DNA from: Chloroflexota bacterium
GTDB lineage: Bacteria; Chloroflexota; UBA6077; JACCZL01
Direction: 5' to 3'
Length of the DNA stretch: 58,820 nucleotides
Assembly: GCA_020850535.1 (NCBI GenBank)
Contig: JADZEM010000081.1
Location: 1 to 58,820, forward strand
Positions 803 to 56,243 of this stretch are shown here, piece by piece. Position numbers and translations under genes: made by a program. The first letter of the stretch is position 1. Each line of letters starts with the position of its first letter. A model generated the notes under the pieces. The model saw only the letters and a list, made by a program, of their open reading frames with translations, had not been told where the DNA came from and made no database searches.

Positions 803-853
803 CCAGGGCCGCGCCTCCTCATCAAGCTCAACGGATTGCGCTGCGCCCGAGGG

Positions 854-1516: not shown

Positions 1517-1537
1517 GCCTCACAGTATCTCACACCG

Positions 1538-2902: not shown

Positions 2903-3008
2903 CAGTGTGCGCCTCCGTGATAGGAGAACGCTCTTTCGACCGGGGAAGTGTCGCAATGTCGGCGCGGGCGACCGTGGCCCGCGCCTGACGCACGGTCGTC
3001 AGGGGTCA

Positions 3009-3144
3009 GTGGTCAGCAGCCTGCCGACGTCAGGCGGCCTGCACCTTGCCCGGTCCGCCCCAGTTGCAGAGACCGATGGCGAGGTGGTCAGCAGCCTGCC
3101 GACGTCAGGTGGCCTGCGCCCGACCGCGGGCCGCCTGACGTCGG
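3009..3144. repeat. 34-bp direct repeat pair with a 16-bp hairpin
   Basis: A 34-base sequence beginning GTGGTCAGCAGCCTGCCGAC occurs at 3009-3042 and again at 3084-3117 with one difference. The second copy also pairs with a reverse arm at 3129-3144 (GGCCGCCTGACGTCGG), forming a 16-bp stem with one G-T pair around a 14-base loop. The hairpin lies seven bases beyond the stop of the cupin gene on the minus strand, so it could end that transcript, although no T tract follows. Confidence 0.7.
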
Positions 3145-3150
3145 CGGTTG

Positions 3151-3795: not shown

Positions 3796-3869
3796 GGTCA
3801 CTCCGACGCTCGCGGTGCGGATTCTCCATCATTTCGTTCGCCGTGTTGCCGAGGCCGACGCAGGCGGGG

Positions 3870-4958
3870 TCAGCGGTTCAGGTACGCCAGGATGATGTCG
3901 CGGGTCAGGGCGATATCGTCGCGGGCGTCTCGGCCGGGCGTGATCGGCTGGCGGCCCGCCAGGATACTCTCACGGAAGTGCCGGATCTCGATCTTGAACG
4001 GGTTGTCGTGCCAGGCGTACCCCTTCGTCCAGGGCGTCCCGTCTTCGTCCATGCCCTTGACCGTGACGTGGGTCGGCAGGCCACGCGAGAACCCGGTCGG
4101 GAACGACACGATCACCCGATCCCGCGAGCCGTACACCTCGAACGTTTCGTCGAAATCCTGAAGCTCGGGCAGGTCAACCCAGCTCACCACCGCGCGGATG
4201 TCGCCCGCGTACTGCAGCACGATGGTGATCGCCCGGCCGCCGCCCCAGATCTCCGTCGAAACGACGCGCTCGGGCGGTCCGAAGCAGCCGTACAGGTTAC
4301 CAAGGTCGTGAATCAGGCTGCCGAGCACCAGGCTGAACGCCTGGACGATGTCGTCGGGCGCCGAGGGCAGGCCGAGCGCTTCGGCCACCAGCCGGCGATG
4401 CTCCGCCCGCACGGCATCCCGCGCGCCGGGCGGGAAATCGTCGAACGTGTGCAGGTTGAACTCGGCGAGGTGCAGCGAGTTGTCGGGATGCAGGTGGTTG
4501 ACCTGGATGAACCTGACATCCGGGATCGCTTTGATCCGCGCCTGTGCGAACTGGTAGGCCGGCTCGTGCCGCTTCATGTAGCCGACCTGGAGGATCACGC
4601 CGGCCCTCTCGGCGGCAGCGACCATCGCGTCAGCCTCGGCGACGGTCACGCACATCGGCTTCTCGACGAACACATGCTTGCCGGCCTCGGCGGCGGCGAT
4701 GCTGGCCGGGGCATGCGTCCCAGACGGACAGACGATCACCGCCTCGACATCCGAGGCCAGCAGGTCGCGATAGTCCTGGAACTGGCGTTCCGGCGAGACG
4801 CCGTACTCCTGGCCCAGCCGGGCCATCAGGCCCTTTGAGAGGTCGCAGAGCCCCGCGATCTCGAAGTCATCAGGCAGCTCACGGAGATGCGGAAGGTGCT
4901 GAACCTGGGCGATGGCGCCACAGCCAATGATGCCGATCTTCAACCGGGTGCTGGCCAC
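3870..4958 (-). CDS. Gfo/Idh/MocA family NAD(P)-dependent oxidoreductase
   Basis: The 362-residue protein opens with a Rossmann motif (IGIIGCGAIAQ), an acidic residue after the second strand (GLCDLS) and the family EKP signature (VFVEKPMCV). The C-terminal half is the usual alpha/beta dimerisation and substrate domain. GTG at 4958 is taken as start because GAGGAGG lies six bases upstream; a longer reading frame to 5018 adds an unlikely arginine-rich leader. Such enzymes oxidise or reduce sugars, inositols or their derivatives. The substrate is unknown. The gene lies 74 bases upstream of the cupin gene and may share its transcript. Confidence 0.85.
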   Translation of the reverse strand: MASTRLKIGIIGCGAIAQVQHLPHLRELPDDFEIAGLCDLSKGLMARLGQEYGVSPERQFQDYRDLLASDVEAVIVCPSGTHAPASIAAAEAGKHVFVEKPMCVTVAEADAMVAAAERAGVILQVGYMKRHEPAYQFAQARIKAIPDVRFIQVNHLHPDNSLHLAEFNLHTFDDFPPGARDAVRAEHRRLVAEALGLPSAPDDIVQAFSLVLGSLIHDLGNLYGCFGPPERVVSTEIWGGGRAITIVLQYAGDIRAVVSWVDLPELQDFDETFEVYGSRDRVIVSFPTGFSRGLPTHVTVKGMDEDGTPWTKGYAWHDNPFKIEIRHFRESILAGRQPITPGRDARDDIALTRDIILAYLNR

Positions 4959-13252: not shown

Positions 13253-13462
13253 CGCCGCTCCCCCAGCGTGCCTGACGGCTCTCCCGTTCTGCCCATAGCT
13301 GCCAACGCTTGCTCGTTTCGTCGTTCGGATGTGCGCGGAGGGTACCATTCCACGCGACAGGCCCACACGGCGATGGCGTCTCCGGGCCGGTCGGTCAGTG
13401 GCGCACCCGACGATGCGACAGTCTGCCCGATGGCGGGCAGCCCGGTGAGGGGAGCAGCAGCG

Positions 13463-14194
13463 ATGAGCTCGGCAGGCATCGGCAGTGAGGTCAAGGCACT
13501 CGTCTTCGACGTGTTCGGGACGGTGGTGAACTGGCGTGGGTCGGTCATCAAAGCCGGAGAGCAGATCACCCGCGAAACCGGCCTGACGACGGACTGGCCG
13601 AGGTTTGCCGAGGAGTGGCGGCGGGTCGGCTACCACGAGCAGATCGCGAAGATCCGCGCGGGCACCGCGCCCTACCAGACCACCGATGAGTTCATGATGG
13701 ACAAGCTTCAGGAGATGCTGCCGAAGTACGGCCTGAACGGTCTGTCCGAGGCGCAGGTGGCCTGGCTGCACAAGGTCTGGCATCGGCTGGACCCGTGGGC
13801 GGACTCCGTCGAGGGGCTGACGCGCCTCAAGAAGAAGTTCGTGATCGCTACGCTGTCGAACGGAAACGTCGCGCTGCTGACCGACATGGCGAAGCACGGC
13901 GGCCTGCCCTGGGACGCGATCCTCTCGGCTGAGCTGGTGCAGAAGTTCAAGCCCGAGCCGGAGATGTACCTCTCCTCTGGGCGGTTCCTGGGCCTGCCGA
14001 TGCACCAGGTGATGATGACGGCCGCCCACCTTCGCGACCTCTACGCCTCGCGAGAGCACGGCATGCGAACCGGGTTCGTGCGCCGCGACGCCGAGTGGGG
14101 CGAGAACGGCCAGCGCGAAGGCGAGCCGGACCGCGAGAAGATCGACGTGGTGGCGACCAGCTTCGTGGACCTTGCGGAGCAGCTGGGCGCGTAG
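13463..14194 (+). CDS. Haloacid dehalogenase type II-like HAD hydrolase
   Basis: A 243-residue HAD-superfamily protein. Motif I is DVFGTVVNW with the nucleophile aspartate at residue 16, motif II is TLSNGN, and the lysine motif is KFKPEPEMY, all as in L-2-haloacid dehalogenases. The motif III area reads VMMTAAHLRDLYASREHGM, resembling the AAH..DL pattern of that group. ATG at 13463 lies eight bases after GGGGAG. It may dehalogenate 2-haloacids or hydrolyse a phosphate ester. It stands alone, followed by the heptamer array at 14198. Confidence 0.85.
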   Translation: MSSAGIGSEVKALVFDVFGTVVNWRGSVIKAGEQITRETGLTTDWPRFAEEWRRVGYHEQIAKIRAGTAPYQTTDEFMMDKLQEMLPKYGLNGLSEAQVAWLHKVWHRLDPWADSVEGLTRLKKKFVIATLSNGNVALLTDMAKHGGLPWDAILSAELVQKFKPEPEMYLSSGRFLGLPMHQVMMTAAHLRDLYASREHGMRTGFVRRDAEWGENGQREGEPDREKIDVVATSFVDLAEQLGA

Positions 14195-14197
14195 GCT

Positions 14198-14227
14198 GGG
14201 TCGTGGGTCGTGGGTCGTGGGTCGTGG
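14198..14227. repeat. Heptamer array GGGTCGT x4
   Basis: Four perfect copies of GGGTCGT followed by GG begin four bases after the stop codon of the haloacid dehalogenase gene. A shorter run of the same motif is at about 9520-9537, and a related CGTAGGT array is at 20274-20357. Confidence 0.85.
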
Positions 14228-14281
14228 AAGCATGCTTGCTGACGCGCGCCGCTGCGATGTAGTAAAGACGCAACTCTCCAT

Positions 14282-14576
14282 GTCGTCCTGAGCGCAGCGA
14301 AGGACCTCACCCACTGACCGTCAACCTGCGCAGCACCCACTGACCGTCAACCTGCGCAGCACCCACTGACCGTCAACCTGCGCAGCACCCGCTGACCGTC
14401 AACCTGCGCAGCACCCGCTGACCGTCAACCTGCGCAGCACCCACTGACCGTCAACCTGCGCATCACCCGCTGACCGTCAACCTGCGCAGCACCCGCTGAC
14501 CGTCAACCTGCGCAGCACCCGCTGACCGTCAACGACCGCGTCAGCGGGTGAGGTCCTTCGCTGCGCTCAGGATGAC
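14282..14576. repeat. Family B hairpin with expanded loop
   Basis: The left arm reads GTCGTCCTGAGCGCAGCG then AAGGACCTCACCC; the right arm is its reverse complement, ending CGCTCAGGATGAC. The loop, normally 20-40 bases in other copies, holds a nine-copy 26-bp tandem array. The element fills the gap between the dehalogenase gene and the 3' end of sucB. Confidence 0.9.
14313..14533. repeat. 26-bp minisatellite, nine copies
   Basis: The unit begins ACTGACCGTCAACCTGCGCA and ends GCACCC; GACCG starts at 14316, 14342, 14368 and then every 26 bases to 14524. Copies differ mainly at an A/G position before CTGACC (cActg or cGctg) and one GCAT for GCAG. The last copy is cut short by the right arm of the hairpin. 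There are no unique spacers, so this is not a CRISPR array. Confidence 0.95.
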
Positions 14577-14624
14577 AGTTGGAGTTCGCGTCCTTACGCC
14601 TGTGTCGAACGACAGGCCAGCTCG

Positions 14625-15875
14625 TCACGAGTCCAGCAGCAGCGCCGTCGGGTCTTCGATCAGCTCCTTGATTCGCACCAGGAACTGGACCGCCTCCTGG
14701 CCATCCACGATGCGGTGATCGTAGGAGAGCGCCAGGTACATCATCGGGCGGATCACGACCTCGTTGTTGACGGCGATGGGCCGCTGCTGGATCTTGTGCA
14801 TCCCCAGAATGCCGACCTGCGGCGGGCTGAGGATCGGGGTGGAGAGCAGCGAGCCGAAGACGCCGCCGTTCGTGATCGTGAAGGTGCCGCCGCGCAGATC
14901 GTCCAACGTCAGCGTGTTGTTACGGGCCTTCTCGGCCAGTTGCACGATGGTGCGCTCGATCTCCGCGAAGCCCTTGCGGTCGGCGTCACGCACGATCGGC
15001 ACGACCAGCCCTTCACTCGCCGCCACGGCGATGCCGATGTCGTAGTACTTCTTCCGAACGATCTCGTCGCCCTGGATCTCGGCGTTGATGTTCGGGAACG
15101 CCCTGAGCGCCGCGACGGCCGCCTTGGTGAAGAAGGACATGAAGCCCAGCCCGATGCCGTGCCGTTTCTGGAACTCCTCGCGGCGGGCCGAGCGCAGGGA
15201 CATGACGCCGCTCATATCCACCTCGTTGAAGGTGGTGAGCATGGCCGCCGTACGCTGGGCCTCCAGCAGCCGCATCGCGATGGTCTGGCGGCGACGGGAC
15301 ATCCGCGTCCGCTCCTCGCCGCGCGGGTCGGCCGGGCGGGCGCCGGCGGTGGGCGTCGGGGCAGCCGCCGCCGCAGCGGACGGAACAGGCGCAGCCGGGC
15401 GCTGCTGCGCGAGGTACTGCTCCACGTCCTCGCGCGTGACCCGGCCGCCGGTTCCACTGCCGGTGATCTGCCCGAGATCGACCTGATGCTCGTCTGCCAT
15501 CCGCCGCGCCACGGGTGAGGCGTGCGGCCGGTCGGCAGCGCTGGCGGTCGCCGCGGCCGGCTCAGATGGCGCGGGAGCGGAGGCTTCGGCGTCGGCCAGG
15601 GCGGGGGCCGCGGCTGGCGCGCTCGCGGACGCTGCGCCAGGATCGGCCACCTCCGCCAGCACGTCGCCCGGCTGGACCGTCTCGCCGGCCGCGCGGATGA
15701 TCCTGGTCAGCACCCCGGAGCGCTCGGCAGCCACGTCGACGTTTACCTTGTCGGTCTCCAGCTCGACGAGCGGCTCGCCGGCTTCGACGATGTCGCCCTC
15801 GTGCTTGAGCCAGGAGGCGACAGTAGCCTCGTTCACCGACTCGCCAAGCGTCGGGACGCGAACCTCAACCGGCAT
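14625..15875 (-). CDS. sucB: Dihydrolipoyllysine-residue succinyltransferase, E2 of 2-oxoglutarate dehydrogenase
   Basis: The 416-residue E2 core subunit transfers succinyl groups to CoA in the TCA cycle. It has one N-terminal lipoyl domain with the lipoylated lysine in [10 protein letters not shown] (residue about 42), an Ala/Pro-rich linker, a peripheral-subunit-binding domain ([20 protein letters not shown]), a second linker, and the catalytic domain with SYDHRIVDG near the end. ATG at 15875 follows AGAGAGG by eight bases and lies inside the last codons of sucA, so translation is probably coupled. The E3 gene is not in this window. Confidence 0.95.
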
Positions 15876-43098: not shown

Positions 43099-44058
43099 TC
43101 AGCGGGCGATGATTCCTGCACGCCGGCGGGCATCCAGCCGTCGCCGGTCGAGCAGGTCCAGCAGGGTCGGGAGCAAGTCGGCGTCGGTGCTGGCGATGAC
43201 CCGCCGCACACTGCTGATCGTCAATCGCCGGTCGATCTCGGCGGCCTGGGCCAGGGCGGCGGCCTGGAACCGCTCGCGCAGGCGGCGGTCTGCCGTATCG
43301 ACCAGCAATTGTTCGCCGGTCTCGGGGTCTTCCAGGGTCACGATGCCGACGTCGGGCAGCGATGCTTCTCGGGGGTCCGTCAGCCGCAGCCCGACCACCT
43401 CGTGTCGCTGCGCCAGCCTCCCGAGCGCCGCCGACCACCCATCAGAGACCAGGAAGTCGGAGAGGAGCACCACCACGGACGGCCGCCGAATGACCGTCCG
43501 CGCGAGGTCGAGCGCCGCCTCCAGGTCAGTCGCGCCGCGCTCGGCTCGCCGTGGCGTCTCGCGGAGGCGAGCCAGCAGGCGCAGCAGGTGGTGGCGGCCG
43601 GTGGCCGGCGGCAGCACCTCGACGGGGCGCTCGGCGAAGAGGATCGCGCCGACCCGGGTGTTGTGCCGGCCGAGTACCTGGGTGATCGCCGCCGCCAGCT
43701 CCTCGGTCTGGCTGCGCTTGGTGCGCCGCGCCGTGCCCCAGTCAATCGACGGGCTGACGTCGATCAGCAGCCAGGCGTCCAGCGCGCGCTCGGCGTAGGT
43801 CTGGCGAACGTGCGGCACACCTGTCCGCGCCATCGCCGCCCAGTCCAGGAAGCGCACGTCGTCCCCGGGCTGGTACTCGCGGATCTCGGCCAGGTCGAGG
43901 CCGCTGCCGCGCTGCGCCGAGCGCCGGTCCCCGCCCGGCCGCAACGCCAGCGGACGGAGCACCGTCCACTCCAGCCGCCGCAGCACCTGCGCGATGGGTT
44001 CTTGCCGCTCGGGGGCCGGCGGCTCGGGCCCGCGCCGCTTACGCCACGTCCCGATCAT
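43099..44058 (-). CDS. DUF58 domain-containing protein
   Basis: The 319-residue protein has the DUF58 core, recognisable from LAEIREYQPGDDVRFLDWAAMARTG near residue 55 and a VWA-like domain with a DxSxS metal motif (LLIDVSPSIDWG). ATG at 44058 follows GGGAGGGAG by five bases; the longer frame to 44124 is disregarded. Its first codons overlap the 3' end of the MoxR gene by 20 bases. DUF58 proteins are standard partners of MoxR ATPases, probably as adaptor or substrate-recognition subunits. It has no clear membrane helices. Confidence 0.9.
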   Translation of the reverse strand: MIGTWRKRRGPEPPAPERQEPIAQVLRRLEWTVLRPLALRPGGDRRSAQRGSGLDLAEIREYQPGDDVRFLDWAAMARTGVPHVRQTYAERALDAWLLIDVSPSIDWGTARRTKRSQTEELAAAITQVLGRHNTRVGAILFAERPVEVLPPATGRHHLLRLLARLRETPRRAERGATDLEAALDLARTVIRRPSVVVLLSDFLVSDGWSAALGRLAQRHEVVGLRLTDPREASLPDVGIVTLEDPETGEQLLVDTADRRLRERFQAAALAQAAEIDRRLTISSVRRVIASTDADLLPTLLDLLDRRRLDARRRAGIIAR

Positions 44059-45082
44059 GCTCGCTCCCTCCCAGCTCCAGGCGCGGCGGCGGGAACCGCC
44101 CGAGCAGCGCTTGAACGACGGCATCCGGCGTCACGCCCTCCGCGATGCCCTCGTAGCTGAGGATCAGGCGGTGCCGGAGCACGTCCGGCGCAAGCTCGGC
44201 CACGTCACGCGGCAGGGCATAGTCCCGTCCGCGCAACAGGGCCAGCGCCCGCGCCCCCAGCACGAGGTTGATCGAGGCGCGCGGGCTGCCGCCAAACTGG
44301 ACGGCCGTCGCGTACTGGGGCAGCCCGTGCTGCCCCAGCGCACGGGTGGCGGTGACCAGCCGTGCCGCGTAGGCCGTCACGCGGGGGTCGACGTAGACGG
44401 CCTCGATCGCCTGCTGGAGCCAGCGCAGCCGCTCCAGCGTGACGCGCGGCCGGAGGGTGATCCTGGGGCCGATCATCCGCTCGACGACGGTGATCTCGTC
44501 TTCGTAGGAGGGGTAGTCCACCAGCACCTTGAACATGAAGCGGTCGAGCTGGGCCTCGGGCAGTGGATAGGTCCCATCCGACTCGATGGGGTTCTGCGTC
44601 GCCATGACCAGGAACGGGTCTGGTACGGCGTAGGTCTGCCCGCCGATGGTGACTTGCCGCTCTTGCATCACCTCCAGCAGCGCGGACTGGACCTTGGCGG
44701 GCGCGCGATTGATCTCGTCTGCCAGCAGCAGGTTGGCGAAGACCGGCCCGACCTCGGTGCTCAGATCGCCGGTGCGGGGGTTGTAGACGCGGCTGCCGAC
44801 CAGGTCCGAAGGCAGCAGATCGGGGGTGAACTGGACCCGTCCGAACGTCCCGCCAACGGTGTCGGCCAGCGCCTTGATGGTGGCGGTCTTGGCGAGGCCG
44901 GGGACGCCTTCCAGCATGATGTGGCCGCGCGCCAGCAAGGCTACCAGCAGCCGCTCCAACAGGTGATCCTGCCCGACGATCAGCCGTCGGACCTCGAAGA
45001 CGATGTGCTCAGCCAGTGAGCCGACGGACAGGGCATCCAGGGTGTCGTCGTTCGCTGGGCGGCCGGGGAGTGCATCAGTCAC
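44039..45082 (-). CDS. MoxR-family AAA+ ATPase
   Basis: The 347-residue ATPase has Walker A in EGVPGLAKTATIK, Walker B LLLADEINRAP, the MoxR block MQERQVTIGGQTY, sensor 1 VMATQNPIE and the arginine-bearing LPEAQLDRFMFK. GTG at 45082 is chosen because GGAGG precedes it by six bases; the frame extends to 45166 without support. MoxR proteins are chaperone-like ATPases that activate or assemble partner complexes together with VWA proteins. It is the first gene of the three-gene operon ending at 42043. Confidence 0.93.
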   Translation of the reverse strand: MTDALPGRPANDDTLDALSVGSLAEHIVFEVRRLIVGQDHLLERLLVALLARGHIMLEGVPGLAKTATIKALADTVGGTFGRVQFTPDLLPSDLVGSRVYNPRTGDLSTEVGPVFANLLLADEINRAPAKVQSALLEVMQERQVTIGGQTYAVPDPFLVMATQNPIESDGTYPLPEAQLDRFMFKVLVDYPSYEDEITVVERMIGPRITLRPRVTLERLRWLQQAIEAVYVDPRVTAYAARLVTATRALGQHGLPQYATAVQFGGSPRASINLVLGARALALLRGRDYALPRDVAELAPDVLRHRLILSYEGIAEGVTPDAVVQALLGRFPPPRLELGGSEHDRDVA

Positions 45083-45398
45083 GCGCGTCCTCCATCCATG
45101 ACCGAACGGCGGGGACGCACGGCACACGCCCGCAGGCTGCCCGTTGGCTGCTCGCGTTCGGGCCACGCCCCCTCAGTCAAAGACTGTACGGAGCCGGCTT
45201 CAGGGCCAGATGAGGCCCAGGTGAGGACCGGATCAAGATGTCAGGTGAGGCGTGACAGCAGTTCTGCCGAGCCAACCTCACTTGCGACGAAACGTTCGTC
45301 GGTTCTTCATGGCCCTTTCACTGCGCGTTCATGCGGCCCGCGGATGCTGGCCTGGATACTCGCTGCAGCCGGGCGATGTCGCCCGAATCGGAGGCCCC
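45083..45398. other. Divergent intergenic region
   Basis: It separates the minus-strand MoxR operon from the plus-strand secreted-protein gene and should contain both promoters. Short imperfect direct repeats of AGGTGAGG are seen around 45220-45250. No clear promoter boxes, RNA gene or further reading frame was recognised. Confidence 0.35.
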
Positions 45399-46684: not shown

Positions 46685-48787
46685 TCAGGCGAAGTCGACG
46701 CGCAGGTTGCGGAGGGCGTCGATTGCGCAGCGAGCGCCAGGCCCGATGACCACCGTGGACTCGCGCTCCTCGACGATGGCCGGTCCGTCAAAGGTCGTCC
46801 CCGGGGCGAGCCTGTAGCGGTCGTAGACCGGCGACTCGCGATACTCGCGCCACTCGGGGTGGTAGACGCGCCGCGACCCCTTGAGCGCCTGCTCGGCGGT
46901 GCCTGACTCCGGCCCTTCAGCCCTGAGGCGCAGATCCGGGCGCGGGCCAGAGACGACCAGCCGCCAGGAGATCACCTCAAGGCCGACGTTCGGTCCGATC
47001 CGCCCGTAGAGCTGCTTGTAGACCGACTCGAACGCTTCGACCACCGCCGGCAGCGAGTCTGCGCCCAGCGCACCGGCGAGCAGCGGCACTCGCACCTCGT
47101 ACCCTTGCCCGACGTACCGCACGTCCGCCGAGCGGATGTACTCGATCTCGCTCGCGGCGACGCCCGAGGCGAGCAGGATGTCCCGCCCGCTGGTCTCCAT
47201 CTCCGTGTAGATGCTGTTGACCGCCGACCAGTCCAGCTCGTCCAGGCGACCGTACGACGTCCGCACGAAATCGAACGCCAGCGGGGCAGACAGGAATCCA
47301 ACGGTCGACGTAACCCCCGCCGCGTATGGCGAGATCATCGACGGGGCGTGCAGCGCCTCGGCCACCCGGTAGGCATGGACCGGCCCGGCCCCGCCGAACG
47401 CAAAGACCGGGAACGAGCGCGCGTCCTTTCCGCGCTCAATGGCGTGGACGCGGGCGGCGTTCGCCATGCTCTCGTTGACGACCTGGTGGATTCCCCAGGC
47501 GGCCTCCGGCACGCTGATCCCGAGTGGGTCGGCGATCTTCTCCTTGATCGCGCGCTCGGTCGCGGCGAGGTCGAGCTGCATACGACCGCCGAGGAAGAAG
47601 GCGGGATCGAGGTAGCCGAGGATCAAGTCAGCGTCGGTGACGGTCGGCTCCGTGCCGCCGCGACCGTAGCAGACCGGCCCGGGCTCGGCCCCGGCGCTGT
47701 CAGGGCCGACCTTCAGCAACCCGAGCGAGTCGATCCGCGCGATGCTGCCGCCGCCCGCCCCGATCTCGATCATCTCGATGACGGGGGTCTTGACCGGCAG
47801 ACCGCTGCCCTTCTTGAAGCGGTACTTCCGGTCAACCTCGAAGTCGTTGGCCGTCAGCGGCTGTCCCTTCTCGATGACGCAGAGCTTGGCTGTGGTGCCG
47901 CCCATGTCGAACGACATCAGGTCGGCCGCGCCGATCCGCTGCCCGAAATACGCTGTCGCCAGCGCGCCGGCGGCCGGACCAGACTCCAGCAGCCGAATCG
48001 GAAAGCGGGTCGCCGTCTCGATGGTGCCGATGCCGCCACTCGACAGCATCACGAACAACTGCCCGCCGAACCCGAGCGTTCGCAGGCGGCTCTCCAGCTC
48101 GCGCAAGTACCTGTCCACCCGGGCCTGGACGTAGACGTTCGCGCAAGTGGTGCTGGTCCGCTCGTACTCGCGGATCTCGGGGACCACGTCAGACGAGATC
48201 GACACGCGGATCTCGGGCGCGACTTTCGCGATCAGGTCGGCCACCTGGCGCTCGTGGGTCGGGTTGGCGTAGCTGTGGAGCAGCGAGACGGCGATGGCCT
48301 CGATGCCCTTCTCCTGCATCTCCCGTACGAGTGGCTCCAGGTCTTCGAGATCAGGGGCTTTGACGACCTCGCCGCTCGCCAGCACCCGCTCGTCAACCTC
48401 CAGCCGCAAGTAGCGCGGGACCAGCGGCGTCGGCATCTCCAGGAACACGTCGTACAGGTCGTAGCGGTGCTCACGACCGATCTCGACGGCGTCCCGAAAG
48501 CCCTTCGTCGTCAGCAGCGCCGTCTTCGAGCCTTTGCGCTCGATCAGGCTGTTGGTGACGAGCGTCGTGCCGTGAATGATGTTCTCGACCCGAGCAGCCT
48601 CGACGCCTGAGCGTGTCAGCGCATCGCGAAGCACCGTCTCGACGGCTTCAGACGGGTCAGATGGCGTGGTCAGCGACTTGCCGACAGACATCGCGCCGGT
48701 CGCCGTCTCGACGAGGATCAGGTCGGTGAACGTGCCCCCGATGTCGACGCCGACTCGGTAGGTGGCGTCGGGCCTGGTGTCACTCAC
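46685..48787 (-). CDS. Hydantoinase/oxoprolinase family protein, subunit A
   Basis: The 700-residue protein has the N-terminal hydantoinase domain (YRVGVDIGGTFTDLILVE, IIHGTTLVTNSLIERKG), and the ASKHA-type ATP-binding core (SFDMGGTTAKLCVIEKG; GAGGGSIARIDSLGLLKVGPDSAGAEPGP). The C-terminal domain ends with EERESTVVIGPGARCAID. Full length for HyuA. These enzymes use ATP to open cyclic imides, 5-oxoproline or related rings, or carboxylate ketones, usually with a HyuB partner. No hyuB is adjacent here. Start is GTG at 48787 with GGAGG upstream at a rather long spacing. Confidence 0.92.
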   Translation of the reverse strand: MSDTRPDATYRVGVDIGGTFTDLILVETATGAMSVGKSLTTPSDPSEAVETVLRDALTRSGVEAARVENIIHGTTLVTNSLIERKGSKTALLTTKGFRDAVEIGREHRYDLYDVFLEMPTPLVPRYLRLEVDERVLASGEVVKAPDLEDLEPLVREMQEKGIEAIAVSLLHSYANPTHERQVADLIAKVAPEIRVSISSDVVPEIREYERTSTTCANVYVQARVDRYLRELESRLRTLGFGGQLFVMLSSGGIGTIETATRFPIRLLESGPAAGALATAYFGQRIGAADLMSFDMGGTTAKLCVIEKGQPLTANDFEVDRKYRFKKGSGLPVKTPVIEMIEIGAGGGSIARIDSLGLLKVGPDSAGAEPGPVCYGRGGTEPTVTDADLILGYLDPAFFLGGRMQLDLAATERAIKEKIADPLGISVPEAAWGIHQVVNESMANAARVHAIERGKDARSFPVFAFGGAGPVHAYRVAEALHAPSMISPYAAGVTSTVGFLSAPLAFDFVRTSYGRLDELDWSAVNSIYTEMETSGRDILLASGVAASEIEYIRSADVRYVGQGYEVRVPLLAGALGADSLPAVVEAFESVYKQLYGRIGPNVGLEVISWRLVVSGPRPDLRLRAEGPESGTAEQALKGSRRVYHPEWREYRESPVYDRYRLAPGTTFDGPAIVEERESTVVIGPGARCAIDALRNLRVDFA

Positions 48788-48874: not shown

Positions 48875-49864
48875 TCAGGGCAGCGGTGAGACTGGATCCC
48901 AGGGCAGTCCCGGCAACAGGTGGACGATCCGGGCTGGCCGATTGAGCTTGCCCGGCTCCAGCATGGCGAGCGGCGTCAGGAACTGCCCGGCCGGGCCACT
49001 CCAGGCAAGCACCCAGGCCGGCCCGAACCGGTAGGCGTCGAAGGCGGCCCGAGCCGATGGATCGATCCAGGTGGAGCCTGTCAGCTCCTTCGCATCAGCC
49101 GGCACGACGTGCAGGCCGGAACCCCACCATACCACCGGCGTCTCGCGCTTGAGGTTGTCTACGGCGAGCGTCATCCTGAACTGTTGGAACTGGCTCGCCT
49201 CGGAGGAGTCGGGCTTCTCGATCCACTGGGCTTCGTCCATGGCGCAGAGCGCGGTCTCGCCGCTCGCACCGAGTGGGTAGCGGCCGACCCAGCTCAATGC
49301 ACCTCGCAGCTGCCAGTGCATCCAGACGGAGCCAGGGGCTGCGTCGGCCGGCTGGCCGGTCAGCCGCTGCTTGATCCGTCCCAGAAAACCGGTCGACTGC
49401 TCCTCAACGACCGGCCGCTCGGGAGGAGCGAGGGGCGGCTCCAGCAGCACGACCTGGTAGCGTACTCCCCACGAGCAGGCCCAGACTTCGCGTTCTTCAA
49501 GCTCCAGTCTCGCCAGCGGGATGAGCGTGTCCTGAGCCGTGCGCTGGCGTCGTCGAGGCGGCTTGACCGCCGTCCATCCATCAGGCGGCTGCTGCGCCAG
49601 CAGGCGCAATCGGAGCAGCCGGCAGGCGCTTTCGGCCAGCGCCAGGGCGCGCAGACCGGTGGCGGCGTCGGGCGCATCGGCGACAGCGGCCACATGTGCT
49701 GCGACGGCCGGCAGGCCGACCTCGGCGAGCCCCTCGGCCAGCCGGCAGAACTCGTCGGCTTCGGCCGACGCCTGCCGCCAGCCGGAGGTCAGGAGCCGCT
49801 GTACGCGCTCCTCAACCTGGAGCAACTGGGCGGTGAGGCCACGGGCAGCCTCGCTGTCGATCAT
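48875..49864 (-). CDS. Unrecognised fifth protein of the MoxR-DUF5682-VWA-SWIM operon
   Basis: A 329-residue soluble protein with no family that I recognise. Residues 1-100 are helical (LTAQLLQVEERVQRLLTSGW..., ALAESACRLLRLRLLAQQ). A basic linker (PPRRRQRTAQ) leads to a beta-rich region with many tryptophans (VWACSWGVRYQVVLLEPP; VWMHWQLRGALSWVGRYPLG; TPVVWWGSGLHVVP; AWVLAWSGPAGQFLTPLAML). It starts 19 bases after the SWIM gene stop and must be cotranscribed. It may be a substrate-recognition or regulatory subunit of the ATPase system, which is inference from position only. Confidence 0.75.
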   Translation of the reverse strand: MIDSEAARGLTAQLLQVEERVQRLLTSGWRQASAEADEFCRLAEGLAEVGLPAVAAHVAAVADAPDAATGLRALALAESACRLLRLRLLAQQPPDGWTAVKPPRRRQRTAQDTLIPLARLELEEREVWACSWGVRYQVVLLEPPLAPPERPVVEEQSTGFLGRIKQRLTGQPADAAPGSVWMHWQLRGALSWVGRYPLGASGETALCAMDEAQWIEKPDSSEASQFQQFRMTLAVDNLKRETPVVWWGSGLHVVPADAKELTGSTWIDPSARAAFDAYRFGPAWVLAWSGPAGQFLTPLAMLEPGKLNRPARIVHLLPGLPWDPVSPLP

Positions 49865-49883
49865 GTCCTGCGCCTCAACACAT

Positions 49884-51299
49884 TCATCCGGGGAAGATCC
49901 GACCGTAGCTGCCGCGCCCCGTCGAGCGCGGGGTCATCCCGACCACCGAGAGCGGGCGCAGGCGCGGTCCGAACGCCGTCGGCGTCACGATGCCAAACAG
50001 GGCGAACGGGTCGTCCGGCGGCGGGGCCAACTCAAGTCCGGCCACGGCGAGTGCGCTCCAGTCCAGCGCCAGAAACTGTCCGCTCCTGTCGAGAGCGCCG
50101 GCCGGCGCCCCGGCGCGGGTGGTCGCGAGACCAGGTGTGCCCTCCGGCGCGGTCAGCAGCGCCGACGGACGGAACAGGACCGCTGCCTCGGGTTGCCCGA
50201 ATGGGGATGCCGCCCGCTCGATGAGCCTTCGCTGGATCTCGGTCACATCGGAGGCCGCCCCCTGAACCAGTCGGTCCAGGTGCTCGCTCCGCAGTGTGGC
50301 GCGCTCATACTGCGCGAGCTTGATCCGTCGTGGTGCCAGGCCCGGGTAGAGGCCGGCCGAGCGGACCAGCAGCCGCAGCCGATGGTTCGGCGGCTCAGTT
50401 CCGCGCAGGCGGCGCGGCGCGATCACGCGGTCGACGTAGATCGTCAGGGACGCGAGGTCCGCCAGGTACGAGGTCGCGACCAGGAACTCGCCGTCGCTCT
50501 CCTGCGTCGTTGCCACCTGCACCAGCTCCAGGTCGGCGACCGGCTCCAGCTCCTCCGCGCGCCAGGTCTTCCCGAGCAGGTCCTCGGCGAGGCGCGGATC
50601 GAGCGCGACGCTGCCGTCGAGCATCGCGCCGGTCGCGGTGCGACAGCGGTACAGGTCGAGCAGCAGGCTGGTGAAGGTGGCGGCATCGATGCCCTGCGAG
50701 TCGGCCACGGCCCGTTGGAGCTGCATCAACAGGTTGCCGAGCCGCCGCAGCTTGAGCGCGCGCACCAGCTCGCCGCACTGCGCGATCAACTGCGACTTCT
50801 CCGCGCCGAGCGCCATCAGGCCGCCGTCGGTCAGCTCCAGCAGCAGGCGGTCCAGGACGTCGAGTCCGGCTGCGCGCTGCGCGGCCGGCTCGACCTTCGT
50901 CTTCGATGCACCGCCCGCACGACTGGTCTTCTTCCTGGCCGCCGGCGCAGGCGGCTCCGGCAGCGAGTCCAGCACCGAGAAGGCGGCCGGCTGTTCCAGC
51001 AGCGCCGCGCAGACGGCCACCACGTGCTTGCAGAATTTGTTGCGCCGATGGGCCGGACAGGTACAGGTCACCCTGGCCTCATCGGCGGCGGGCAGGCGCA
51101 CTGAGACCCGGTAGTCCGTCGAGCCGGACACCAGGGCGAACGCGGCCGGCTCCTCGACGCCCGGCGCGACGGACCCATCCTTGACATGGCCCTTGCGAAG
51201 GTAGTCACGACCGGCCTTGTACGCGGAGTCGCCGGCCAGTTTCTGGAGTCGCTGGCCGAGGCTGGTCAGTTGCGGCAGCGTGGCCGGGTCAAACGACAT
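49884..51299 (-). CDS. SWIM zinc-finger protein (YehQ-like)
   Basis: The 471-residue protein carries an N-terminal SWIM zinc finger, CTCPAHRRNKFCKH (CxC then CxH, about residues 84-97), preceded by the usual AYKAGRDYLRKGHV region. A long C-terminal domain rich in helices and strands follows. ATG at 51299 overlaps the 3' end of the VWA gene by 11 bases, so translation is coupled. SWIM fingers bind nucleic acid or proteins. In E. coli the yehL-M-P-Q cluster has the same members; their function is still poorly known. Confidence 0.88.
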   Translation of the reverse strand: MSFDPATLPQLTSLGQRLQKLAGDSAYKAGRDYLRKGHVKDGSVAPGVEEPAAFALVSGSTDYRVSVRLPAADEARVTCTCPAHRRNKFCKHVVAVCAALLEQPAAFSVLDSLPEPPAPAARKKTSRAGGASKTKVEPAAQRAAGLDVLDRLLLELTDGGLMALGAEKSQLIAQCGELVRALKLRRLGNLLMQLQRAVADSQGIDAATFTSLLLDLYRCRTATGAMLDGSVALDPRLAEDLLGKTWRAEELEPVADLELVQVATTQESDGEFLVATSYLADLASLTIYVDRVIAPRRLRGTEPPNHRLRLLVRSAGLYPGLAPRRIKLAQYERATLRSEHLDRLVQGAASDVTEIQRRLIERAASPFGQPEAAVLFRPSALLTAPEGTPGLATTRAGAPAGALDRSGQFLALDWSALAVAGLELAPPPDDPFALFGIVTPTAFGPRLRPLSVVGMTPRSTGRGSYGRIFPG

Positions 51300-52461
51300 C
51301 GTCTGCCCCCCGCCCGTCGCCCCGCAGCGCCCGTTCGACGGCATCCACCAGCTTGCCTGGCGTGGCGGCGAAGGTCGGGATGTCGAGCGCCGCGACTTTG
51401 CGCGCCATATCTGCGTCGAACGATGCCGTGCCCTTGTCGTTGAGCGCCAGCACGCACAACACGTGCGCCCGCGACTCCTTCAGAGCGCCCAGCCCCGCCA
51501 GGAGGTTCTCGCGGCTGCCGCCCTCGATCAGGTCCGTGATGAGCAGCAGCAGGGTCTTCTCCGGCTGGGTCACCAGCGACGCCCCGTACTGGACAGCCCG
51601 CGCGATGTCGGTGCCGCCGCCGAGCTGCACGCCGAACAGCATCTCGACGGGGTCCGACAGTTGATCGGTGACGTCGGCGACGGCCGTGTCGAAGAAGACG
51701 AGGCGGGTGTCCAGCGCCGGCAGCGATGCGAAGACCGCCGCCACGATGGACGAGTACACGACCGACTCGCCCATCGATCCGCTCTGGTCCACCAGGATGA
51801 TGACGCGCCACTCGTGGAAGCGCTGCTGATTGGCGAAGAAGTGGACGCGCTCCGGCACGATCTTCCTGAGCGACGGCTGATAGTTGCGAAGTCCCTCGCG
51901 GACCGTCCGCTTCAGGTCGAGATTGCGTGCCACGCGCAGCGGACTGTGCCGGTCGCGCCGCATCGCCCCGAGCAGCGCCTGCCGGGTCTCGTTCTCCAGC
52001 CGCTTGCGGAGGTCGTCCACGATCTCGCGGACGACCTGTCGGGCCGTCTCACGCGTTTGCTCGGGCATCAGGTGCTTGAACGCCAGGATCGTCGCGACCA
52101 GCCCGACATCCTTCTGCAGCGACTGGAGCGCTTCCGGTTCGAGCAGCAACTGGCGCAAGCCTCTCCGCTCGATGGCGTCCTTCTCCATGAACGCCACCAC
52201 GTCCCGCGAGAAGTAGCGCCGAATGTCGCCCAGCCAGCTTGCGACGTAGGGGCTGCTGGCCTCCGAGCCGCCCCGCTGGCCGCCGTCGCCGTAGAGGAAG
52301 TCCAGGGCACGGTCAACCTCGCCCAGCCCGGACTCGGACTGCACGGCCTGCTCGGCCTCGGCCCAGATGCCGCCGGCCTGCTGCCGCGACTGCTCAGGCC
52401 CGAGCACCAGCCGCCAGCGCAAGAGCGTCCGTTGGGCCGCGTCGTCAGGCGCCGATGCCAT
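51289..52461 (-). CDS. VWA-domain protein, CoxE/YehP-like
   Basis: A 390-residue cytoplasmic protein. The N-terminal half is helical (LRQLLLEPEALQSLQKDVGLVATILAFK), the C-terminal half is a VWA domain with metal site DQSGSMGES (about residue 222) and GGGTDI, TDLIEGG downstream. It lacks membrane helices, unlike the VWA protein at 42043. The start overlaps the end of the DUF5682 gene by 17 bases and its end overlaps the SWIM gene. It is the VWA partner of the MoxR ATPase at 54952. Confidence 0.9.
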   Translation of the reverse strand: MASAPDDAAQRTLLRWRLVLGPEQSRQQAGGIWAEAEQAVQSESGLGEVDRALDFLYGDGGQRGGSEASSPYVASWLGDIRRYFSRDVVAFMEKDAIERRGLRQLLLEPEALQSLQKDVGLVATILAFKHLMPEQTRETARQVVREIVDDLRKRLENETRQALLGAMRRDRHSPLRVARNLDLKRTVREGLRNYQPSLRKIVPERVHFFANQQRFHEWRVIILVDQSGSMGESVVYSSIVAAVFASLPALDTRLVFFDTAVADVTDQLSDPVEMLFGVQLGGGTDIARAVQYGASLVTQPEKTLLLLITDLIEGGSRENLLAGLGALKESRAHVLCVLALNDKGTASFDADMARKVAALDIPTFAATPGKLVDAVERALRGDGRGADDVV

Positions 52462-54931
52462 ACCGATCCTTCCAGTCCTGGAGCGTGGCTGCGACGGCCC
52501 GGTCGGCCTCCTCCAACCACGCCCGGTCGGTGGAGGTCACCTGAAGCGCGCGCCCCGCCGTCGTGGCGCTCAGCCCGAGGAGCGCCCCCAGCGTCTCCGA
52601 GAGGTAGACGCGCTCCGGGCCGCTCAGGTTGCCGAGGCTGCGCCGAAGCACCGGCAGCAAGGGGGTCAACTGCTCCAGCTCGAGGCCGGCCAGGAACTCC
52701 GTCACCGCGCCGACGAGCGCCCGATTTCGCACCAGCGTCGCCCGGTGCAGCACGAACAGGCCCGACACCAGACGTGCGTTGTCGACGGCGTCCGTGACGG
52801 AGGACAGCCAGTAGCGCAGCCGGGCGGTCAGGTCGCCGTCGGCGAGCCGACCGCCAAGCTCCAGCAGCACCAGCGCCAGGCCGCGCAGCATCGGGTTGCT
52901 GGCCGGGCGCTCGGCAACCGAGGCGATGGCCTCCCAGAACGCGTCAAGCTCGCCTGCGACTACGTTAGAGCGACGCTGCACCAGCTCGTGCAGGGCTACC
53001 AGGGTCGTGCGAACCTCGTCTGCCGCTTCGTCGGCGCAGACGGTCGCGGCCGGCAGGTGCAGCACCGCTCGCGCGAACAGCCGCCGTGCGAGGTCGAGAA
53101 GTCGCGCGGACGGCAGCTTGCGCGCGGCACCGTAGGCCAGCAGGCCGTCCAGGTGGTACGTCGCCCGCGCCAGCGCCGGAAAGCTGCCGCTGTCCGCCGC
53201 CAGCGACTCGCAGCGGGCCAGCGCCGCGCCGAACGCCGGGCTCTCGGCCAGGTCGCACAGCGCCATCTGCAACAGCGCCTCGGTGCCGCTGTCCACGCGC
53301 TGCGCGCCGTCCAGGCGCTCGCGCAGGACGCGCCCCGTCGCCTCGGCCAGCGTGCTGCCCCAGGCCGTCCGCTCGATGAGCCGACCGTCCGTGGCCGGGC
53401 TCCACTGGACCTCCCAGCGCTCGCGGACCCGCCCGAGCTGTTCGAGCGGTCCCCTCGCCAACTGCCCACCCAGCCCGCTGGCCTGCTCCGACGCGAACGG
53501 CACGCCCAGCGCGCGCAGGCGGTGAAACAGCACCGACTGCTCGGCCTCGGCAGCGTTCCCGGCCAGGTGGACCAGCACGATCTTTGGCGTGTCCTGAAGC
53601 GGGAGCCGCAGACGGTCCACCGTCGCGTAGAACTCGTCCTGGAGTGGCGTTCGGCCGGCCCGCCCGGTGACCCGCCCGACGGCGTCCCCGATCAGCACAC
53701 CCTGGATCGCCGTGGAGACCACGTCGCCGTGCCCCTGGCCGAAACAGGCGATGGCCGCGTCCACCAGCTCGTCGACGCCGGGGGCCTGCTTGTCCCGCAT
53801 CGCGGCCAGCGTTGCCGCCAGCGTCTGCGCGTCGATGGCCTGGGCGACCGATGCGCCATGACCCCGCCGCCGTAAATGCCGCGCGAGCACGACCAGCCCG
53901 CTCCGGGTGGCGGCGGCATAGTCGCCGTTTCGTTCCCAGACCTGCTGGTAGTACCAGGGCGCGCGGTTGCCAGCGCCGTACCCGGCCTGCTCGCTGAGAC
54001 GCGGATACGAGTAGGGGATCAGGGCAAGCTGGGCCGCCGTGGGTTCTGGGTGTTCGGCTGCGGGCTCCGGGGAGGGCAGGGCCGCCGACAGCTCACCCGC
54101 ATCGGGCGGCAAAACGGGATCGGGGGACGCATAGGCAGCGGCGATGGGGCCGGCGTGCGCTGCGCCACACACCAGCAGGATGTCCGCGTCGGCAATGCCT
54201 CGGCTCAGCGACGCGGAAGCGGCTGCAGCCATCGCCCGTTCGCGCGCGTCGTCGTATCCGCGATCTCGCCCGCTCAGAAGCTCGCGGGCCTGCGCTCCGA
54301 ACGCCGTCATCAGCTCGACATAACGCGCAGAGTGACCGCTGCCGGCCTCCTGCTCGAAGCCCGCTTCCCAGAACGCCTCGAACGAGCCAAAGCCGGCCGC
54401 CTCGGCCAGGGCCGCCATGTACTCGGCGTAGCCAACGTTCAGGGGTGCATCCTCCCCCTCTCCGCGCCGGGGATGATGTCGGCGAAGCCGATGGTCGCGC
54501 CGCGCAACGGGTTGGGGGGTGAGGTTCGTCGGGGGCCGCGGGGTGAGGCTGTCCGCGCTGCGCCCGGCTGTCTCGCCATCGTCTGCCGTCTCGGTAACGA
54601 CCGCCTCTTCCACCTGCCACGCCAGCGTCACACTGGTTGGCAGATCGCAGAAGCGCACCTCGGCGCCGACCTCGCGGCCGGCGGTCATCGCTACGTATTC
54701 CGGCGAGTACGCGCAGAACGGGTAGTAGGCCGCCCGCACGTCCTCGCCCTGCCGCTGGTAGGCGTACACCGCGACCGGTGGCCGCGTGGCGGGGTCTGTC
54801 AACTGCTCGATCAGGTCGGTCGCGTCGGACGGACCCTCGATCAGCACGACGCGCGGACGCCGCTCGCGGATCAGCCGTCCGACATGCAGGGCAGCCGCTG
54901 GCGAGTGGTGGCGGATCGGGACGATCAGCAC
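52445..54931 (-). CDS. DUF5682 family protein (YehM-like)
   Basis: The 828-residue protein begins with the family block LIVPIRHHSPAAALHVGRLI then VVLIEGPSDATDLI, followed by VAVYAY and YYPFCAYSPEY, typical of DUF5682. The C-terminal two thirds are mostly helical repeats (DTPKIVLVHLAGN, EALLQMALCDLAES). The GTG start follows GAGAGG by seven bases. Residues about 125-165 are an odd Pro/Arg-rich insertion (LTPRPPTNLTPQ) that looks like a translated intergenic repeat. Function unknown; it is the constant large partner in MoxR-VWA-SWIM operons. Confidence 0.88.
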   Translation of the reverse strand: MLIVPIRHHSPAAALHVGRLIRERRPRVVLIEGPSDATDLIEQLTDPATRPPVAVYAYQRQGEDVRAAYYPFCAYSPEYVAMTAGREVGAEVRFCDLPTSVTLAWQVEEAVVTETADDGETAGRSADSLTPRPPTNLTPQPVARRDHRLRRHHPRRGEGEDAPLNVGYAEYMAALAEAAGFGSFEAFWEAGFEQEAGSGHSARYVELMTAFGAQARELLSGRDRGYDDARERAMAAAASASLSRGIADADILLVCGAAHAGPIAAAYASPDPVLPPDAGELSAALPSPEPAAEHPEPTAAQLALIPYSYPRLSEQAGYGAGNRAPWYYQQVWERNGDYAAATRSGLVVLARHLRRRGHGASVAQAIDAQTLAATLAAMRDKQAPGVDELVDAAIACFGQGHGDVVSTAIQGVLIGDAVGRVTGRAGRTPLQDEFYATVDRLRLPLQDTPKIVLVHLAGNAAEAEQSVLFHRLRALGVPFASEQASGLGGQLARGPLEQLGRVRERWEVQWSPATDGRLIERTAWGSTLAEATGRVLRERLDGAQRVDSGTEALLQMALCDLAESPAFGAALARCESLAADSGSFPALARATYHLDGLLAYGAARKLPSARLLDLARRLFARAVLHLPAATVCADEAADEVRTTLVALHELVQRRSNVVAGELDAFWEAIASVAERPASNPMLRGLALVLLELGGRLADGDLTARLRYWLSSVTDAVDNARLVSGLFVLHRATLVRNRALVGAVTEFLAGLELEQLTPLLPVLRRSLGNLSGPERVYLSETLGALLGLSATTAGRALQVTSTDRAWLEEADRAVAATLQDWKDRYGIGA

Positions 54932-54951
54932 GGGCCGGCCTCTCGTTGCCG

Positions 54952-56094
54952 CTACCGGCCGAGCAGATCGTGGCCGGCCGCGTACAGGTCGCGCCAGAGC
55001 CGCTCGGATCGCGTCTTCGCCACCGTCTCCAGATACTCCTGGAGCACCGCGAGATCGGCCTGGTTCTCCTTGGCGACCGTCCCGACCAGCGCTCCGACGC
55101 AGTCCTGCACCGTTGGCTGTCCCTGCCCGCCCACTCCGAAGAATGACCCGACGAGCGCGCCGTCCGCCACCACCGAGATCAGCTCGGCGGTACTGAGGAC
55201 CGTTGACGGCGACTTGACCTTCGCCTTGCCGTCAACCGTCTGGCCGCGCCGCAGCTCCGAGAACACCGTTGCCAGCAAGCGGATCAGATCGCGCGGCACG
55301 GCGGCCGGCACGCCAAGGTCGGCCAGCAGCTCGCCGCTGCGCCGCTCGACCAGTGCCACTTCTTGCTCGATGTCCGCCACGACGGGGATGGTCACGAAGT
55401 TGAACCGCCGCTTTAGCGCCGACGACATCTCGTTGACGCCCCGGTCGCGGGTGTTGGCCGTGGCGATCGCGGCGAACCCACGTCGGGCCGGCACCACCTC
55501 GTGCAGCTCCGGAATCGCCACCTGCTTCTCGGACAGCACCGAGATCAGGGCGTCCTGCACCTCGGCAGCGCACCGCGTCAGCTCCTCCAGCCGCACGACC
55601 TGCCCCTGCTGCATGCCGCGCAGCACGGGACTTTCCACCAGCGCCCGACGCGTCGGCCCCTCGGCGATCAGGAGCGCGTAGTTCCAGGAGTATTTGACCT
55701 GCTCCTCAGTGGTGCCGGCCGTGCCCTGCACCACGAGCTGCGACGTCCCCGAGATGGCCGCCGACAGGTGCTCTGACAGCCACGACTTGGCCGTTCCCGG
55801 CTCGCCGGCCAGCATCAGCGCCCGATCCGAAGCCAGCGTCGCGATGGCCACCTGTACCAGCCGCCGGTCCCCGACGAACTTCGGCTGCACCTGGACGGGA
55901 CCGTTGGGACCAGGAACGGCCTCGCGGCTGCCGAGGATGAACGTCTCGACGGCTCGCGGCGAGAGCTGCCACCCGGGCGGCCGCGCACCACGGTCGGCTG
56001 ACTGGAGCGCCGCCAGCTCGGCGGCGCACCGCACCTCGGCCGGCTGCCGCACAACCCCGTTACTGCCCGCTGGTGCTGTCCCCGCTGCTGACAC
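54952..56094 (-). CDS. MoxR-like AAA+ ATPase (YehL-like)
   Basis: The 380-residue ATPase has Walker A AGEPGTAKSW, Walker B region VVRLEELTRCAAEVQDAL, sensor 1 IATANTRDRG and arginine-finger segment SALKRRFNFVTIP. It belongs to the YehL-type branch, distinct from the MoxR at 44039. GTG at 56094 is preferred since GGAGG stands five bases upstream; the GTG at 56100 overlaps that motif. It is the first gene of the five-gene operon running to 48875 and presumably powers remodelling by the VWA, DUF5682 and SWIM proteins. Confidence 0.92.
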   Translation of the reverse strand: MSAAGTAPAGSNGVVRQPAEVRCAAELAALQSADRGARPPGWQLSPRAVETFILGSREAVPGPNGPVQVQPKFVGDRRLVQVAIATLASDRALMLAGEPGTAKSWLSEHLSAAISGTSQLVVQGTAGTTEEQVKYSWNYALLIAEGPTRRALVESPVLRGMQQGQVVRLEELTRCAAEVQDALISVLSEKQVAIPELHEVVPARRGFAAIATANTRDRGVNEMSSALKRRFNFVTIPVVADIEQEVALVERRSGELLADLGVPAAVPRDLIRLLATVFSELRRGQTVDGKAKVKSPSTVLSTAELISVVADGALVGSFFGVGGQGQPTVQDCVGALVGTVAKENQADLAVLQEYLETVAKTRSERLWRDLYAAGHDLLGR

Positions 56095-56243
56095 CGCCAC
56101 CTCCGTGCGTGCTGACGTCCCGCCAGTCAGTCTGCCGCGCCGGCAATGGCGCGCTCAACCATTCCAGTGGCGGCTGACCTCGCTACCCGTGCAAACGAGA
56201 GGGATCGTGCACCAGTCACGGTTCTGTGCGCCTTCCTCGCGTT

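Follow-up and report, generated by a model that had tools for sequence, protein, structure and literature searches.

Organization of the operon

The window, that is, the whole stretch of 58,820 nucleotides analysed here (contig JADZEM010000081.1 of a Chloroflexota bacterium), carries five ORFs on its minus strand, all read in the same direction in the order MoxR-DUF5682-VWA-SWIM-fifth (Table 1). By family and by order the first four correspond to E. coli yehL-yehM-yehP-yehQ, as the first-pass annotation had recognized. The tight coupling that it described is also borne out, with a 17-nt overlap between DUF5682 and VWA, an 11-nt overlap between VWA and SWIM, and a spacing of 19 nt between SWIM and the fifth gene, whose ATG is preceded by a ribosome-binding site, GAGG, at about 49873-49876. 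The MoxR frame may start at a GTG at 56100 or at a second GTG at 56094; the latter lies 5 nt past a GGAGG, so that the shorter reading (54952-56094) is plausible. No sigma-70-like promoter was seen in the operon stretch, and the sole terminator-like site there falls within the MoxR gene, at no more than chance level. A hydantoinase gene, of other function, lies 87 bases downstream of the fifth gene on the same strand.

Table 1. Genes, domains and motif residues of the operon, in window coordinates; E-values are Pfam matches
Feature	Position	Strand	Evidence
MoxR-type AAA+ ATPase (YehL-like)	54952..56094, or to 56100	-	AAA_5 2.5e-36
DUF5682 protein (YehM-like), 828 aa	52445..54931	-	PF18934 7.5e-129
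Putative TraB/TIKI-like domain, DUF5682 residues 1-310	54002..54931	-	profile-profile match to TraB/GumN
DUF5682 H8, H9 motif residues	54905-54910	-	
DUF5682 E32 motif residue	54836-54838	-	
DUF5682 R230-E231-M234 motif	54230-54244	-	
DUF5682 G256xxH259 motif	54155-54166	-	
VWA (CoxE-like) protein (YehP-like), DxSGS MIDAS motif	51289..52461	-	VWA_CoxE 6e-47
SWIM zinc-finger protein (YehQ slot)	49884..51299	-	SWIM 2.5e-5
Fifth gene, 329 aa	48875..49864	-	GC3 and codon use; 19-nt gap to SWIM
HD2-like four-helix domain, fifth protein residues 12-86	49607..49831	-	profile match; AF2 helices 4-90
Trp-rich domain, fifth protein residues 93-329	48878..49588	-	13/14 Trp; AF2 pLDDT <50, predicted strands

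MoxR, VWA and SWIM proteins

The window MoxR matches its counterparts in sister DUF5682 operons at 1e-96 to 3e-128, with one truncated ORF at 8e-60. The VWA motifs, DQSGSM (residues 225-230) and GGGTD (residues 281-285), are invariant across five aligned relatives save for the residue following D225, and in the VWA tree the window sequence and that of the nearest operon, L054, form one clade (90/97) separate from both main types. The SWIM protein is composed of the finger, a helical domain HD1 (84.7 bits to its profile) and a C-terminal part.

A probable TIKI-like domain in the DUF5682 protein

The AF2 model of the DUF5682 protein (mean pLDDT 83.8, pTM 0.82) has an N-terminal alpha/beta domain followed by a C-terminal alpha-helical solenoid. 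Profile-profile comparison of DUF5682 with TraB/GumN gives a score of 32.5 (P 8.6e-4), against at most 19.8 for 100 column shuffles and at most 20.9 for four decoy families. The three TraB/GumN motifs (H, E and RxxxM...GxxH) are collinear and in register along the whole DUF5682 N-terminal domain, and its key motif residues are invariant in 39 of 39 sequences. These statistics support placing the domain with the TraB/GumN (TIKI-like) hydrolases, with a putative hydrolase activity predicted from sequence. E. coli YbaP, a TraB/GumN member, shares the three motifs in the same register and differs in having GxxH and RNxxW where DUF5682 has HH and RExxM; the long helical solenoid is an addition in DUF5682. 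A Foldseek search of the PDB with the whole protein placed no TIKI structure among the best 50 matches listed, which are dominated by helical solenoids. A relationship to erythromycin esterase was also considered and rejected, scoring no better than column shuffles. The TIKI-like motifs thus give the operon the appearance of a motor, made of MoxR and VWA, to which a TIKI-like hydrolase is joined.

The fifth protein

The fifth ORF is a real coding frame, with a GC3 of 0.82 and a codon score of 0.18 that is the top of the six frames (runner-up 0.03). Its product is indeed Trp-rich, as reported earlier: 14 of the 329 residues are Trp (4.3%, vs 1.2% across the ORFs of the window), 13 of them after residue 92. 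Pfam gives nothing over its cut-off for this protein and detects no HEAT repeats in it; membership in DUF2267 was rejected at an E-value of 0.012, under the cut-off. Genome contigs, plasmids, phages, viral contigs and the PDB yielded no full-length relative, and the gene is thus not a recurrent fifth gene: the survey for its recurrence turned up no full-length homologue in any other operon, and it is the N-terminal domain that recurs, on other proteins of sister operons.

The AF2 model of the fifth protein alone is usable only for residues 1-92, which contain helices at 4-90. The predicted strands of residues 93-329 suggest that this part is probably a beta-rich domain. By eye it appears collinear with the beta domain of SWIM/YehQ proteins; the idea that it is a copy of that domain gained no support, all profiles tried scoring no better than shuffled controls, but the comparison is a weak one, since one of these profiles fails to detect even the SWIM protein of the window.

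A probable HD2 domain on a separate protein

We use the name HD2 for the helical domain that ends YehQ-type SWIM proteins. An HMM built from nine YehQ-type C-termini, excluding the fifth protein and orf413 of L054, scores the N-terminus of the fifth protein at 16.3-18.2 bits, whereas the best of 2000 shuffles reaches 11.1; the likeness had first been spotted by eye and was tested afterwards. At 18.2 bits the E-value in the target set is 2.5e-4, and the match covers positions 6-81 of about 88 in the model, nearly the whole domain, which makes up about a quarter of the fifth protein. The same HMM gives 24.5 bits for orf413. Among 555 real genes, scores near these two are found only for type-A SWIM proteins, the SWIM-slot protein of L055 and two source proteins of the profile, L053 and L052. 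In 29 whole genomes, searched with an alignment that includes orf413, the fifth protein is the top non-member match (E 0.0012; the next in its own genome is 0.04). Leave-one-out scores for the fifth protein range from 8.4 to 22.5 bits depending on the sample, and three accepted HD2 members score below 5 when left out. By profile, HD2 is present on the SWIM proteins of E. coli, Iodobacter, Allorhizobium, Sinorhizobium, Nocardia and genome G308; the profile finds no match in the SWIM protein of L054, nor in that of the window. The match is moderate, and the statistics support reading residues 12-86 as an HD2 domain.

The fifth gene may instead be an unrelated passenger, an orphan behind SWIM that is perhaps co-transcribed, with the HD2 match a chance likeness between helical bundles. 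This would agree with its occurrence in one genome only so far, with a modest match that shifts in leave-one-out, and with the same-strand hydantoinase gene shortly downstream. It is made rather unlikely by the 19-nt gap with its own ribosome-binding site behind overlapping genes, by the rank of the match in the 29 genomes, by HD2 being otherwise a feature of SWIM-slot proteins and of orf413 in sister operons, and by the absence of exactly this domain from the window's SWIM protein. In our reading the fifth gene appears to be a lineage-specific accessory subunit that brings HD2 to the complex. The 'new subunit' suggested in the first-pass annotation is supported for the N-terminal part only, because HD2, which elsewhere forms the C-terminus of YehQ, has here a protein of its own. 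The split YehQ of Iodobacter (L115), which might have shown the domain on its own gene in another operon, was rejected: its two ORFs are different frames of one and the same DNA segment, which looks like a frameshift.

Comparison with related operons

Sets of five are general among DUF5682 operons, in the orders SWIM-DUF5691-MoxR-DUF5682-VWA, DUF4132-MoxR-DUF5682-VWA-SWIM and MoxR-DUF5682-DUF4132-VWA-SWIM; a fifth gene is thus not unusual in itself, and what is unusual is its identity. Elsewhere the fifth protein is DUF4132 in the E. coli type and DUF5691 in most relatives within the phylum. The E. coli operon has the same four families in identical order with overlapping ends; it differs in having WGR-DUF4132 and DUF4132 upstream and HD2 on YehQ, whereas the window has a SWIM protein without HD2 and a separate fifth gene. 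The operons of most phylum relatives, Deinococcus, Rhizobium and Methylosinus likewise hold the four families plus a fifth protein, but are led by SWIM and DUF5691. The 7.65 Mb genome of the window gives no match to DUF4132 (PF13569), for which the E. coli positive control was detected, or to DUF5691 (PF18944).

The nearest operon, L054, is from another class of the phylum (G103; DUF5682 1e-142, VWA 4e-133, SWIM 4e-32). As in the window, its SWIM protein lacks HD2, and a domain similar to HD2 is carried by a different protein of the operon. That protein, orf413, starts with HD2, continues with HEAT repeats and is encoded between DUF5682 and VWA, which is the DUF4132 slot of Allorhizobium; no co-directional fifth gene follows SWIM in L054. 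Together with the absence of both partner families from the window's genome, the HD2 shared by this slot-filling protein and the fifth protein would fit a fifth protein that is the functional counterpart of DUF4132/DUF5691, as a non-homologous replacement of the usual partner. We consider this improbable: the fifth protein lacks detectable HEAT repeats, its C-terminal part is predicted, at low confidence, as strands and not as a solenoid, and it is far shorter than DUF4132 proteins.

Relation to conflict systems

The first-pass annotation had noted that the system is proposed to be conflict- or stress-related. The literature searched, which left most subscription journals outside, gives no function for yehLMPQ-type genes; with PADLOC, DUF5682 matches nothing, and the one match to a candidate-defence model (PDC-S62) comes from the SWIM-finger region, so that such a role finds no support. 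MoxR-DUF5682-VWA is also present in a single 14-kb record labelled 'Bacteriophage sp.', which is unverified; the record is possibly a bacterial scaffold and was not counted as a phage link.

In the MoxR-vWA ternary conflict systems, displacement of effectors around the core is the rule (PMC7159879). This, and the lineage-specific occurrence of the gene, would suit a role of the fifth protein as a dedicated effector or toxin, or as the immunity partner of one, in a conflict system driven by the MoxR-VWA core. Toxin and effector domains gave no matches, however, and the operon is not among the systems of that paper, which makes no mention of SWIM, YehL, YehM or DUF5682. The third component of those systems (VMAP, iSTAND, FtsH or beta-propeller) was not found here: in no operon protein does a match to VMAP, STAND or a propeller domain pass the cut-off, and bpMoxR reaches 22.8 bits with the window MoxR, under the cut-off of 27. 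We regard an effector as very improbable, and the earlier suggestion of one is left without supporting evidence.

Proposed function and significance

The reading we prefer, to which we give an even chance, is that the operon encodes a divergent form of the YehLMPQ (DUF5682) system, in which a fifth subunit specific to this lineage docks through HD2 and MoxR and VWA act together with a TIKI-like hydrolase. RavA-ViaA and NorQ-NorD are likewise pairs of a MoxR AAA+ ATPase and a MIDAS-bearing VWA protein (PMC9976466); they differ in lacking DUF5682, SWIM and the fifth protein, and their known targets are respiratory enzymes. As in these pairs, the MoxR ring would work with the VWA protein as adaptor, here to remodel or gate the putative hydrolase, while the SWIM protein would recognize a target. 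Through HD2 the fifth protein would take the docking place that the C-terminal end of YehQ has in E. coli; binding of a target or partner may be added by the Trp-rich domain. More tentatively, and at somewhat less than even odds, YehLMPQ-type operons as a whole could encode AAA+-gated peptidases or esterases of the TIKI family, MoxR-VWA regulating YehM and an exchangeable helical HD2 plugging in lineage-specific recognition subunits, the fifth protein among them. No paper on a TIKI-like YehM or a transferable HD2 was found in the literature searched, which leaves out most subscription journals.

The yehLMPQ genes occur in E. coli and across several phyla, and the system is open to testing in E. 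coli K-12 on two counts: YehM has the residues that are conserved in TIKI-like hydrolases, which allows point mutants, and HD2, as a seemingly transferable docking module, gives clear predictions for domain swaps and pull-downs.

Operon layout and coding potential

The five open reading frames (ORFs) described in the first-pass annotation are indeed arranged in tandem, all on the minus strand, and the overlaps (17 and 11 nt) and the 19-nt gap agree with those given there. The MoxR, DUF5682, VWA and SWIM assignments are confirmed by Pfam, and these four genes agree in family and order with yehL, yehM, yehP and yehQ of E. coli, while the fifth protein (329 aa) is as unrecognised as was claimed, with no Pfam family above cut-off. 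Its frame is coding, with a GC3 of 0.82 and the best codon use among the six frames. The protein is indeed Trp-rich (4.3% vs 1.2%), and 13 of its 14 Trp lie beyond residue 92.

ORFs of the operon in the window
Gene	Position	Strand	Type
MoxR	54952-56100, alternatively from GTG at 56094	-	ORF
DUF5682	52445-54931	-	ORF
VWA	51289-52461	-	ORF
SWIM	49884-51299	-	ORF
Fifth gene	48875-49864	-	ORF

On the same strand, a hydantoinase/oxoprolinase A gene (46685-48787) starts 87 bases past the fifth gene with no terminator-like site in between, and the two may share one transcript. A second MoxR-family AAA+ gene (44039-45166; AAA_3 5.8e-62, bpMoxR 2.1e-16) lies on this strand about 4 kb past the operon.

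A probable HD2 domain in the fifth protein

Full-length relatives of the fifth protein were found neither in 41 related genomes and 29 genomes of the window's class nor among genome contigs, plasmids, phages, viral contigs and PDB chains, and NCBIfam, PADLOC and PHROGs gave no match. Recurrence of the fifth gene, which the first-pass annotation had proposed to survey, was not seen: phmmer returned no match among the ORFs flanking 40 DUF5682 loci of the phylum.

Profile statistics nevertheless support assigning its N-terminus to HD2, the helical domain of ~85 residues that ends YehQ-type SWIM proteins. A profile of nine YehQ-type C-termini, excluding the fifth protein and orf413 (the HEAT-repeat protein of the sister operon L054), scored the fifth N-terminus at 18.2 bits against 11.1 for the best of 2000 shuffles, a test made after the likeness had been spotted by eye. 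It scored orf413 at 24.5 bits; with two of the proteins used to build the profile (L053 and L052) set aside, the only scores close to these among 555 real genes came from SWIM proteins of type A, from orf413 and, at locus L055, from the protein in the SWIM slot. The family is diffuse, and leave-one-out profiles gave the fifth protein 8.4 to 22.5 bits. With a ten-row profile including orf413, run on 29 whole genomes, the fifth protein was the top match outside the alignment members (E 0.0012), the next in the window's genome having E 0.04. The match covers residues 12-86, almost the entire domain, and coincides with the one stretch that AF2 modelled at usable confidence. By profile, HD2 is absent from the window's SWIM protein and from that of L054. 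Beyond HD2, the by-eye collinear likeness of the fifth protein to the SWIM beta domain did not exceed that of shuffles, in a weak test in which one profile misses the window's own SWIM protein.

DUF5682 as a possible TIKI-like hydrolase

The AF2 model of DUF5682, built with 39 sequences, is confident (pLDDT 83.8) and shows an N-terminal alpha/beta domain followed by a long helical solenoid. In profile-profile comparison, its N-terminal 325 residues scored 32.5 (P 8.6e-4) against TraB/GumN (YbaP and relatives), compared with at most 19.8 for 100 column shuffles and 20.9 for four unrelated operon families. The alignment places IRHH on GSIH, LIEGP on IVEAD and RExxM...VCGxxH on RNxxW...VGxxH. None of the residues H8, H9, E32, R230, E231, M234, G256 and H259 varies across the 39 sequences, and E. 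coli YehM carries the same motifs; enzymes of the TIKI family rely on conserved His and Glu (PMC6254334). Foldseek with the DUF5682 model showed no TIKI structure among the top 50 PDB hits, because the helical solenoid dominated. The profile and motif comparisons support the view that the N-terminal domain (54002-54931) resembles the hydrolase domain of TraB/GumN (TIKI).

A relationship of DUF5682 to erythromycin esterases was also considered, and the comparison was negative. Erythromycin esterases and TraB belong to one superfamily (TIKI); the same profile method found no link between them, and its reach is therefore limited.

Arrangements of DUF5682 operons

Of 400 genomes from the phylum, 56 have a match to PF18934 (DUF5682). 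The common order there is SWIM-DUF5691-MoxR-DUF5682-VWA, which is also found on Deinococcus, Rhizobium and Methylosinus plasmids. DUF4132 stands upstream of MoxR-DUF5682-VWA in E. coli, Iodobacter, one Streptomyces plasmid and genome G308 (L053), and between DUF5682 and VWA in Allorhizobium and Sinorhizobium; Pseudomonas, Proteus and other actinobacteria have, instead of the upstream DUF4132, a long ORF without a named family. In L054, the window's nearest relative, orf413 fills the slot between DUF5682 and VWA. Window and L054 group together in the VWA tree (support 90/97), outside both main types. Neither DUF4132 nor DUF5691 was found in the window's genome, an assembly 96% complete in 227 contigs. 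Given these varied arrangements, a fifth protein is normal for the DUF5682 family, and which protein it is varies.

Several further loci were noted. L055 (4871-11425) is a very divergent version, orf452-VWA-MoxR-DUF5682, whose orf452 lacks the SWIM finger and has a weak HD2-like stretch. In L052, from a genome of the window's order, a SWIM-slot ORF (13455-14795) follows MoxR-DUF5682-VWA near a contig end, with HD2 and no Pfam SWIM match; the VWA and DUF5682 proteins of this locus cluster with their Streptomyces atratus counterparts (L114). On Iodobacter fluviatilis plasmid pl1 (L115, 12522-14578), yehQ is split into two overlapping ORFs in different frames, apparently by a frameshift. A 14-kb record from human faeces, labelled 'Bacteriophage sp.' and unverified (MT835988.1; L160), also has MoxR-DUF5682-VWA at 253-4879, and PHROG 31592 matches the VWA protein too (1.2e-67).

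Proposed mechanism

No published function for yehLMPQ-type genes was found in a literature search with little reach into subscription journals. By analogy with NorQ-NorD, a precedent for a MoxR/VWA motor and adaptor (PMC9976466), MoxR and VWA would form the motor and adaptor of a complex in which DUF5682 is the putative hydrolase. The SWIM and fifth proteins may then serve as recognition or docking parts, with HD2 acting as a plug.
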